NCBI RefSeq assembly: GCF_001644025.1
Contig: NZ_LUUK01000052.1
Coordinates: forward strand, 1-40,606
DNA length: 40,606 bases
Source of the DNA: Methylomonas koyamae
Lineage (GTDB): Bacteria > Pseudomonadota > Gammaproteobacteria > Methylococcales > Methylomonadaceae
Direction of reading: 5' to 3'
The translations under genes and the position numbers were made by a program. Of this stretch, positions 4,139 through 40,357 are shown piece after piece. Under the pieces are notes generated by a model that was not told the DNA's origin, did not search any database, and was given only the letters and a program-made list of their open reading frames with translations. Positions within the stretch are counted from its first letter, which is position 1, and each line of letters opens with the position of its first letter.

Positions 4139-4725
4139 TGGGTTAATGTGCTCATCGCTGGGCTACTTGCGCGATATCGACCCGGAAATTCGATAAAAAT
4201 TTCGTCGATGCGCAAATCCAGGCGGGATTTAGCGTTCTCAAGTCGAATAGCAATTTTCGCGCGGCTGGTTGGAACACGCTAGTCAGTCGCCGAAAACTTT
4301 AAAACAACTGGCTTCCGCCCGATTATGTGGCCGCCACCAAAACGGGCGGGGGCTTGGTAAGGCCATCGTCATAATACCCAAGAGTATTGGCATGCCGGGG
4401 TTGGAAATCGACACGCTCCATGGTTCCGATCTGAGCCGAGTCACGCAAGAGTTGGTTGGGCTGGCAATCGGCCACTTTGGGATATTCGAATATTTCAGCG
4501 AATTTCGGCAGTAACGCCTGAATCTCACAGGTTAACCCGTACGCTGGAACAAACCAGAGGGAATTCTTATCCCGAACTGATCGAATGAAAGCACGGTTTT
4601 GGCAAGATTAAATACTCAAATCGTCATCAATGTATTGAATGATGCGTGATTAAATTATGTCATTTAACAATGATTTAACGATCCAGTATGGTGTTGTCCA
4701 ACCCAACAACATACCGGAGAGGGTA
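4139..4725. other. intergenic stretch, no gene called
   Basis: About 590 bases without a convincing gene. Two short open frames (4269-4514 forward, 4283-4528 reverse) overlap each other and show no family resemblance or ribosome site; they could be remnants of a lost gene. The AT-rich part from about 4600 to 4680 probably carries the promoter of the downstream secreted protein. Confidence 0.4.
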
Positions 4726-5820
4726 GTGAATCTTGTAACTCTATTTTGCGCGGCCATGGTGTTTGCGACCAGCGACGCCTTGGCTGAAGGCAACTCGAAT
4801 TTTGATGTATTCGCCAACCTCGATACCGGGCCGGGCAATGTCACGGCGACAGCCAACGGCCGGATCATCATGAGCCAACATCAGTTTTATCAACCGCAAT
4901 ACACCGTGGTTGAATACAAGGATCAGACCTTGCTGCCTTTTCCGAATAAGGAGCTGTCCGCGGCCGATTCAACCGCGCCTATCAAGCTCGACTCGGTACT
5001 AGGTATCCGCTCCGACAGCAACGGTATCGTCTGGATGCTGGACAACGGCATGCGCAGCGGCGTGACGCCCAAATTGGTCGGCTGGAATACCAAAACCAAC
5101 AAGCTCCAGCGCTTGATTTATTTACCCGCACCGATCGCACCCAAGGATGCGTTCGTCAACGACTTTGCGTTGGATGCCATCCACAATTATGCCTTCATCA
5201 GCGATCCGGCGGGGGGCGCGAATGCGGCCTTGATCGTGGTCAACTTGTCTACCGGCGCCGCTCGGCGGGTGCTGGAAGGTCATAAAAGCGTGGTGCCGGA
5301 AAACGTCGATTTGGTCATCGACAATGTGCCGATTCAGCTGAAAACCGCGTCGGGCGAATTGGTGAAACCGCATATTGGCGTGAATCCCATTACCGAGGAT
5401 TTAGCCAACGAATGGGTTTATTTCGGGCCGATGCACGGCCTTAGTCTTTACCGGATTAAAGTGGCGGATTTGATCAACGAGTCGTTAATGCCGCAAGAAC
5501 TTGCACAGCGGGTTGAACGCTATAGCGACAAACCAATCTCGGACGGCATCAGCATTGACGAGAACAACAATATTTATCTAGGCGATCTGGCCAATAATGC
5601 GATTGGCGTGATCGCGCCTAACCGACAATATCGGCAATTGGCGCAATGTCCAAGATTGTCTTGGGTCGATTCCTTCAGTTTTGGCGCTAACGGACAACTC
5701 TATGCCGTCGTTAATCGCTTGCATCGTTCGGCGACGTTGAACGGCGGCGATAATCAATCCAAACCGCCGTACTTTTTGTTGAAGGTAAAGTCCTTGGCAG
5801 CAGGCCTACCAGGACGTTAA
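4726..5820 (+). CDS. secreted major royal jelly protein/yellow-family beta-propeller protein
   Basis: I chose the GTG start at 4726 because GGAGAGGG precedes it by about six bases and it gives a clean signal peptide (MNLVTLFCAAMVFATSDALA). An in-frame ATG at 4657 lacks both. The 364-residue product has the pattern of the MRJP/yellow family of six-bladed propellers: a GNVTATANGRI opening, LGIRSDSNGIVWMLDNG, and DGISIDENNNIYLGDLANNAIGV near the end. Bacterial members are exported and of unknown substrate; some relatives act as lactonases or bind small ligands. The stop codon lies inside the target duplication of the element at 5826-5986. It converges on the LysR gene. Confidence 0.8.
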   Translation: MNLVTLFCAAMVFATSDALAEGNSNFDVFANLDTGPGNVTATANGRIIMSQHQFYQPQYTVVEYKDQTLLPFPNKELSAADSTAPIKLDSVLGIRSDSNGIVWMLDNGMRSGVTPKLVGWNTKTNKLQRLIYLPAPIAPKDAFVNDFALDAIHNYAFISDPAGGANAALIVVNLSTGAARRVLEGHKSVVPENVDLVIDNVPIQLKTASGELVKPHIGVNPITEDLANEWVYFGPMHGLSLYRIKVADLINESLMPQELAQRVERYSDKPISDGISIDENNNIYLGDLANNAIGVIAPNRQYRQLAQCPRLSWVDSFSFGANGQLYAVVNRLHRSATLNGGDNQSKPPYFLLKVKSLAAGLPGR

Positions 5821-5994
5821 AGATTGGCTATGTTAGCGTTAATAGTTGAATGAGATCGAAACCGTCATCCCGGCATGGATTGCCGGGATCCATGGTACAA
5901 GGATGTGTTGAAACTTCGCCGTCCGTGGCTTCTGGGCCCCGGCAATCCATGCCGGGGCGACGCCAACTACTAACGCGAACATAGCCTAAAGATT
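5818..5994. mobile_element. MITE-like element (5826-5986) with 8-bp target duplication
   Basis: The element is 161 bp with terminal inverted repeats of 23 bp differing at two positions. The left arm starts GGCTATGTTAGCGTTAATAG at 5826; the right arm, read inward from 5986, starts GGCTATGTTCGCGTTAGTAG. TAAAGATT directly repeats at 5818-5825 and 5987-5994, consistent with an 8-bp target duplication (9 bp if the next G is counted). Inside lies a second long inverted pair around CCCGGCATGGATTGCCGGG and its complement (about 5864-5892 and 5943-5971). There is no transposase, so it would move only with help in trans. The strong internal hairpins could also end transcription from both sides. Confidence 0.8.
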
Positions 5995-6921
5995 GATTTG
6001 GGATGCGCTTATTTTCCGGCCTATGCTGCTGATTTGCTCGCGCAACCAGCCATGAGCCGGGTCTTTTTCCCACAACGGATGCCAAATCATCGCCAAATCG
6101 TAGTCCGGCAAACTCACCGGCACCGGCAACACTTGCAGTGGCACCAGTTTCTGAAAGGCGATGGCCAAACGATAGGGTAAGGACAAAATCATATTGGACT
6201 GGGCCACGATCAAGGGTGCCGATAAAAAATGCGGCACGATGAAGTTAATCCGGCGCTCCAAGCCCAACTCAGTCAATTTCTCGTCTATCACTCCCAATTT
6301 ATCGCCGGTTCTGGAGATCAGCATGTGCGTGGCGGCCAAATACGTCTCCAGCGACGGTGGCGCTTTTATGCTGGGATGATCCTGCCTAACCACGCAAGCC
6401 ATGCGATCCATGAATAAATGTTCGCAGTGTAAATGCGCCGGCGGATTCAATACCGAGGCAAAGCCCAACACCACATCCAGACTGCCGTTTTCCAACTGCG
6501 CCAACGGAAAAGCAGATTCCGTGCGTTTGACATGAATATCCACGCCCGGTGCCGACTGCTCAATCGATTGCGACAGCTCCGGCAAGATCAAAAACTCCAT
6601 GTAATCGGTGGCGGCGATAGTGAAACGGCGCTGACTGGATGCCGGATCGAAGGCTTGCGGCGCCTCGAGCAAACGTTCCATTTCCTGCAAAAGGCTACGT
6701 ACCGGCTCCACCAATGCTAGTGCCAATGCCGTCGGCTGCATGCCGGCGGGCGATTTAACCAAGACCGGATCGTTCAATTGCTGGCGCAAGCGATGCAAGG
6801 TATGGCTCATCGCCGACTGGGTGACGAACATGGATTCCGCCGCGCGGGTGACGTTGCGCTCCCGCATCAATATATCGAAAGCCAGCAACAGGTTTAAGTC
6901 GAAGGTGCGCAGGTTGGCCAT
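5986..6921 (-). CDS. LysR-family transcriptional regulator
   Basis: A 311-residue LysR regulator. The N-terminal winged helix-turn-helix occupies about residues 1-62 (RNVTRAAESMFVTQSAMSHT then LHRLRQQLNDPVLVK). A substrate-binding-type effector domain follows (about 90-300), with the FTIAATDYMEFLILPEL opening typical of the NodD/LinR/PcpR-like group. I start at 6921 (MANLRTFDLN) because the domain begins there and GGAA precedes it. The longer frame upstream is unlikely. It is divergent from pxmABC with 249 bp between starts, so control of pxm is a reasonable guess from position. Its TAG stop is made at the junction with the MITE-like element. Confidence 0.92.
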   Translation of the reverse strand: MANLRTFDLNLLLAFDILMRERNVTRAAESMFVTQSAMSHTLHRLRQQLNDPVLVKSPAGMQPTALALALVEPVRSLLQEMERLLEAPQAFDPASSQRRFTIAATDYMEFLILPELSQSIEQSAPGVDIHVKRTESAFPLAQLENGSLDVVLGFASVLNPPAHLHCEHLFMDRMACVVRQDHPSIKAPPSLETYLAATHMLISRTGDKLGVIDEKLTELGLERRINFIVPHFLSAPLIVAQSNMILSLPYRLAIAFQKLVPLQVLPVPVSLPDYDLAMIWHPLWEKDPAHGWLREQISSIGRKISASQINL

Positions 6922-7053
6922 GTGGATATTCCATAAAAAATTCGGCTGCATACTAAACAAAATCGCTGCTGGCCAGCATGAACAGTCTTGATGATAACGG
7001 ATGAAATTTGACCATTTCACAGCTCATCAAATTCTCCTTACCTTATATCGCGA

Positions 7054-40244: not shown

Positions 40245-40357
40245 GTCGTTCCGGCATGGATTGCCGGACCCGTTGGAGCGCGGAGCGAATTCAGGCCCAA
40301 CGGACTGGTTTAAGCCTACCGTCCAAGGCACTGGATGCCCGCTTCCCGGCCGGCGGG
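40245..40357. repeat. REP-type palindromic repeats
   Basis: GTCGTTCCGGCATGGATTGC followed by CGGAC (40245-40269) forms a palindrome of the type also seen inside the MITE-like element at 5826. A second hairpin CCCGC / GCGGG lies at 40338-40357. They sit between the MxaD-like gene and the intron-like sequence. Confidence 0.6.

Follow-up and report, generated by a model that had tools for sequence, protein, structure and literature searches.

The stretch of DNA considered here (the window, 40,606 nucleotides of contig NZ_LUUK01000052.1 from the Methylomonas koyamae assembly GCF_001644025.1) carries two convergent genes, one for a protein of the major-royal-jelly-protein (MRJP) family and the other for a LysR-type regulator, and between them a short element flanked by a target-site duplication. 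The genes were delimited from the list of open reading frames (ORFs) and profile matches, the duplications from the sequence and a repeat search, the element and its terminal repeats from the repeat search and a comparison of ends, the core from the repeat search and a comparison of cores, and the two palindromes from the repeat search. The features of the locus are:

4657..5820, plus strand: forward gene, MRJP family, 387 aa
5818..5825: left target-site duplication TAAAGATT, 8 bp
5826..5986: MITE with IS1595-type ends, 161 bp
5826..5848, plus strand: left terminal inverted repeat GGCTATGTTAGCGTTAATAGTTG
5863..5962: core of two REP-like palindromes in opposite orientation, with edges CGTC...GACG
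5867..5889, plus strand: left REP-like palindrome
5936..5958, plus strand: right REP-like palindrome
5964..5986, minus strand: right terminal inverted repeat, GGCTATGTTCGCGTTAGTAGTTG read inward
5987..5994: right target-site duplication TAAAGATT
5986..7020, minus strand: reverse gene, LysR-type regulator; the longest ORF has 344 aa and the true start may lie further in

The original prediction, made from the letters of the window, described a 161-bp element with 23-bp inverted ends and an 8-bp direct repeat, and this description is correct to the base. The two arms, of 23 nt each, are complementary at 21 of 23 positions, and the duplication of TAAAGATT around the element is perfect (8/8), the chance match of a given 8-mer being 4^-8 by simple arithmetic, or about 1.5e-5. 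The repeat search gives a direct repeat of 9 nt at this place because a G happens to follow each copy of TAAAGATT. The stop codon of the forward gene, TAA (5818-5820), occupies bases one to three of the left duplication, and that of the reverse gene, TAG (5988-5986), combines the TA of the right duplication with the base at the element's end; both stops are as had been described, and the MRJP-type and LysR proteins keep their ends, in agreement with the claim that they were unchanged by the insertion. The element is short (161 bp) and has no transposase of its own. Among ORFs of 80 aa or more, a single one (5828-6085, minus strand) extends far into it, starting inside the LysR gene in another frame, and a search of Rfam with 601 bases around the element returned three matches, all of them under the gathering scores.

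The state of the locus before the insertion can be read in related genomes. Of the 37 genomes of the genus, 24 (the window's own included) were found to have the MRJP protein; relatives of the LysR protein were sought in the same genomes, and the junction was read in the 23 others with an MRJP-type gene. In 22 of these 23 relatives the stops of the two genes overlap, 21 times through TTAA and once through CTAA, in G007, whose LysR gene ends in TAG. G021 is the exception: other sequence follows its MRJP stop, and no LysR end is recognised there. An empty site in related Methylomonas, proposed as a check, is therefore present, and with the predicted joined sequence: the rebuilt junction GGACGTTAAAGATTGATTTG is found letter for letter in five of the 23 relatives (G025, G023, G029, G012, and G003). 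G061, a genome labelled as the same species as the window's, lacks the element and is one base off GGACGTTAAAGATTGATTTG. Within the genomes sampled, only the window's strain has the insertion.

Members of the IS1595 family produce target duplications of 8 bp. The end pattern GGCTATGTTNGCGTTAAT, scanned in one genome collection, occurs in at least 117 stretches. Among the matches listed, paired ends with 8-bp duplications are numerous in methanotrophs, also present in Nitrosomonas, and few in other bacteria, and many single ends have no partner inside 4 kb; in viral contigs, four stretches contain the pattern and none has a partner end. A full-length transposon with the same ends, the existence of which had been suggested as a further check, is represented by two insertion sequences (ISs), of 1048 and 1040 bp, both with IS1595-family transposases. 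The 1048-bp IS is found in Methylovulum miyakonense HT12 at five loci at least (L107, L140, L153, L160, and L187), with exact ends and 8/8 duplications at all five. The 341-aa ORF of the L107 copy matches the NCBIfam model transpos_IS1595 with 178 bits (cut-off 75) and also the Pfam family DDE_Tnp_IS1595. When this transposase was searched in 61 genomes (the window's own and relatives), it was found once, with 73% identity, in Methylomonas G010, where the IS measures 1040 bp, has the ends (A/G)GCTCTGTTAGCGTTAA(T/C)AG and is flanked by the duplication TTATTTAA. This second IS (L284:1452-2491) sits within another open reading frame.

The left end of the window's element is identical at 22 of 23 positions to either end of the 1048-bp IS and at 21 of 23 to either end of the 1040-bp IS; for the right end the figures are 21/23 and 19/23, respectively. 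The element is thus like ISs of this family in its terminal inverted repeats (left 21-22/23, right 19-21/23) as well as in its 8-bp, mostly AT-rich duplications. It differs from both ISs in that it has no transposase and no clear common sequence inside the ends, since over the 17 bases past the 23-base ends only 3 to 9 are shared with either of them. A simple internal deletion of the 1048- or the 1040-bp IS was considered as the source of the element and rejected, given that no clear likeness extends beyond the first 23 bases.

Regarding the source of the transposase, no IS1595 match was obtained in the window's own genome, a draft of 235 contigs, at E 1e-10 with the M. miyakonense transposase as query and with NF033547; ISs can drop out of a draft with this number of contigs, and a missed IS1595 copy is possible. 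An autonomous partner in the same genome is usual with MITEs but no requirement. A search for the whole family finds the transposase in 10 of the 37 genomes of the genus, and the only such gene in G061 is broken. Ends with duplications of at least 7/8 were recovered around 22 of 30 IS1595 transposase loci, corresponding to 21 distinct elements (L284 and L290 are the same), by a search that took only pairs with an 8-bp duplication and is not an independent measure of duplication length. According to their ends, these 21 elements comprise nine of the CCTGATTA type, two of the CTTGATTAGCAAGA type, the one of G010, and nine of G008. The nine IS copies of G008 (L288, L297, L301, L304, L306, L308, L310, L311, and L313) have (C/A)ATGGCTATGAAC-type ends, which have GGCTATG in common with the window's element, three bases further in.

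Further copies of the element are found in the own genome and in others. In the former, a copy 91% identical (L002:1501-1650, contig C183 of G000) is missing the outermost GGCTAT on both sides, and another element (L283:1984-2143, contig C173) has the same GGCTATGTT ends around a different middle and no duplication (1/8). Methylomonas sp. LW13 (NZ_CP033381.1) and G025 both carry an element copy at the same place. Of ten stretches taken from Methylomonas G002, eight have paired ends (six with 8/8 duplications, one with 7/8, and one with 5/8) and two are unpaired; these copies suggest recent mobility within the genus. Two of the G002 insertions seem, when inspected by eye, to overlap a gene stop: one in L265 (about position 1982), with the duplication ATCGAATA before GG, and one in L266 (about 1998), with a duplication, TAAAGAAA, much like TAAAGATT; the crude ORF call places both inside other ORFs. 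A search for further elements with these ends and 8-bp duplications had likewise been proposed at the outset; from 136 loci it yielded a set of 52 paired copies, the window's included, that are non-redundant and have duplications scoring 7/8 or better. For this set, copies with common flanks were merged, and three paired copies with short flanks, 17 end pairings below 7/8, and all unpaired ends were left out; L282 and L283 of the own genome are absent from it. The duplications of the 52 copies are mostly AT-rich, and 43 of the copies lie outside ORFs of at least 100 codons, compared with about 20 expected for AT-matched 8-mers of the same flanks.

Many of the matches listed are confined to the middle of the element. 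From this list 20 stretches were chosen, one of them an array and the other 19 single places, and all near-full cores collected in the analysis were compared. Among 66 distinct cores, paired ends were assigned to 39, namely 23 of GGCTATGTT, 10 of GCCATTAAGTTAAG, 4 of CCTGATTATAAAG, and 2 of CTTGATTAGCAAGA type, and of the remaining ones 14 have one recognised end and 13 none (six of these from one tandem array); the ends were matched with 2-4 mismatches allowed and without a shuffled control, and the GGCTATGTT group is inflated, many loci having been retrieved through that end. The four CCTGATTATAAAG copies represent two sites according to their flanks, each present in G005 and G028. In relatives (L264-L277, L314-L333, and L068), the core is found inside four end types, three of which are of the IS1595 type. 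G028 itself has an IS1595 IS (L289) whose ends match CCTGATTATAAAG, and ISs in G032 (L287 and L296) have ends that match CTTGATTAGCAAGA; these two ends are mutually related by their first bases.

The duplications around these frames, scored allowing one-base shifts, vary in quality. For the CCTGATTATAAAG frame they are 8/8 in L324, 7/8 in L320 and L321, and 6/8 in L325, with no pair in L322; L331 and L068, both of the CTTGATTAGCAAGA frame, have 8/8 each. The GCCATTAAGTTAAG frame has duplications of 10-11 bp (11/11 in L317, 10/11 in L323, 9/10 in L314, and 9/11 in L316 and L326), with poor scores in L319 and L067 and no pair in L327 and L333, and it is probably that of a different kind of IS. 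In 27 loci of four genomes no partner IS was found for the TTAAGTTAAG frame; the end pairs there are 107-483 bp apart, and six loci are unpaired. In 21 representatives of the 66 cores, the first and last 40 bases of cores in frames other than GGCTATGTT match the window at 26-36 of 40 positions (14/40 at one side of the core in L331, which has a small deletion), and the 25 bases adjoining them match at only 2-11 of 25. The core is in turn present in only 22 of the 52 GGCTATGTT elements, and three of these 22 hold just 24-25 nt of it. Given such sharp edges and the existence of GGCTATGTT elements without the core, the ends and the middle have the appearance of interchangeable parts.

As RNA, the 261-nt stretch 5780-6040 is predicted to form, on either strand, one long hairpin from the element (-116.4 and -110.9 kcal/mol, z -6.60 and -7.75, with none of 200 shuffles as low). 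The original prediction had proposed strong hairpins between the converging transcripts; the strong fold is upheld by this calculation, whereas no terminator-like site goes with it, since the intrinsic-terminator test (a G+C-rich hairpin followed by a T-run) gave no site with a terminator-like T-run at the element.

The findings at the locus make it very nearly certain that the element is an IS1595-type MITE, that is, a non-autonomous element with the ends of such an IS, presumably inserted by an IS1595 transposase into the AT-rich TAAAGATT, with duplication of the 8-mer and retention of the ends of both proteins. Against this explanation stand the failure to detect the presumed IS1595 source in the own 235-contig draft, the GGCTATGTT-ended L283 of the same genome with its 1/8 duplication, the many single ends without a partner within 4 kb, and the 17 end pairings below 7/8. 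The composition of the core could alternatively indicate that a REP-associated tyrosine transposase moved the whole 161-bp element as a single large intergenic repeat of REP type, and that its duplication is coincidental. The core is certainly an inverted pair of REP-like palindromes, and the REP half-site has ten exact sites in the own genome and none for the reversed control pattern, but the perfect 8-bp duplication, the exact empty sites, and the match of the ends to IS1595 elements that bear 8-bp duplications make this hardly credible. Moreover, the four Y1_Tnp matches of the own genome (two of which are adjoining pieces) have no REP half-site in flanks of up to 1.5 kb, allowing up to two mismatches, so no rayt gene flanked by the REP of the core was found there. 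For the element as a whole, a REP/rayt origin is excluded by the duplication and the ends; for the core alone, such an origin has no support from the own genome. Within the MITE explanation, a more ambitious proposal is that the core is a discrete parasitic module that would have been picked up repeatedly by different methanotroph MITE frames, travelling interchangeably in three sets of IS1595-type ends and in one frame from a different kind of IS; the CGTC/GACG edges would be a sign that it has its own mechanism of transposition or exchange, and its hairpins might make insertions at gene ends tolerable. We consider this proposal tentative, and rather less probable than its negation.

The position of the insertion at two overlapping stops raises the possibilities that it was chosen or that it was retained. 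It is very unlikely that IS1595 family elements target stop codons or gene ends specifically and not AT-rich DNA in general. Four of the 52 duplications overlap the stop codon of a long ORF (100 codons or more), compared with 0.59 expected for AT-matched 8-mers anywhere in the flanks; however, AT-matched 8-mers outside ORFs overlap stops at a mean rate of 0.066, which gives about 2.8 for 43 copies, one of the four is the window's case, picked for its stops, and the genes were called by long ORF only, a crude procedure. Stop-codon targeting is accordingly unsupported in the 52 copies, and the position is explained well enough by AT-rich targeting together with the loss of insertions within genes. 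An adaptive role, in which the insertion would be kept as a bidirectional barrier between genes formerly without intergenic space, be it a hairpin terminator, a block to RNA polymerase, or a stabiliser of mRNA 3′ ends, seems somewhat less improbable but still unlikely. It would be consistent with the strong fold predicted on both strands, with the ancestral overlap of the genes by their stops, and with the orientation of neighbouring genes, core-bearing copies being in divergent intergenic positions in 0 of 14 classified cases and copies with other middles in 8 of 23 (by a crude gene call; of the 52 copies, 7 were unclassifiable at locus edges and 8 lay inside ORFs). Nevertheless, divergent regions make up 16% of the intergenic bases near copies with the core, for which about 2.2 of 14 would be expected, and 40% near copies with other middles, for which the expectation is about 9 of 23; this base-weighted control accounts for most of the contrast, for which reason an orientation bias was discarded. 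The lack of terminator-like T-runs and the restriction of the insertion to one genome, with G061 devoid of it, also speak against a barrier.

According to the IS1595-type MITE explanation, the MRJP-type and LysR genes would have been convergent in the ancestor, with their stops overlapping in TTAA. After the lineage split from its sampled relatives, an IS1595-family transposase acting on GGCTATGTT ends, probably provided in trans by a GGCTATGTT-type IS that is now lost or elsewhere, would have inserted the element into the AT-rich TAAAGATT, and a staggered cut followed by repair would have duplicated the 8-mer. The forward stop would have been copied whole within the left duplication, and the reverse one would have passed from TAA to TAG when its last A gave way to the element's end base, with the result that both proteins kept their ends. 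The inverted REP-like pair between the ends, presumably captured by the element, would enable either strand to fold into the predicted long hairpin, through which the element may have some effect on transcription.

In its size, long terminal inverted repeats, short duplications, and whole-length hairpin, the element is like QMITE2 of Coxiella, for which the available text of the source gives repeats of 7-9 bp, inverted repeats of 23-29 bp, and a core of 113-145 bp (PMC10969869); the comparison is by description only, and the core in the window is a REP-like pair that occurs in other frames too. With REP pairs and BIMEs, as far as they are described in the portion of the source at hand (PMC2817692), it shares the two imperfect palindromes in opposite orientation, but here the pair sits within MITE frames that have IS ends, no rayt gene was found next to such a repeat in the own genome, and the ten exact half-sites contrast with the more than 100 copies per genome that are usual for REPs (PMC2817692). 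The small repeats BOX, RUP, and SPRITE of Streptococcus pneumoniae insert into one another, in the account available (PMC10969869), and are alike, by description only, in being small mobile repeats nested in each other; in methanotrophs, by contrast, one core with the same edges is common to several end frames. No description of the element, of a methanotroph IS1595 MITE, or of a REP pair common to MITE frames was found in the literature at the level of titles and abstract openings.

The insertion itself is a standard MITE event with IS1595-type ends and a well-proven empty site, and therefore ordinary biology; what may come as a surprise to a specialist is the modular core. The capacity of a single small palindromic unit to occupy several transposon frames matters for the origin of bacterial MITEs, and it also warns against family names based on the middle of a MITE instead of its ends. 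The locus, for its part, constitutes a clean natural experiment, with the insertion in one genome and its absence from G061, labelled as the same species. Since this pair with and without the element is available, and the ancestral stops overlapped, the effect of a MITE on converging transcripts is directly measurable here. The REP-like sequences also occur in other arrangements. A single half-site, CCGGCATGGATTGCCGG, is present at positions 40251-40267 of the window, and in G057 (L318:170-1176) six copies of the core form a tandem array with a period of about 176-185 bp and no recognised transposon ends.
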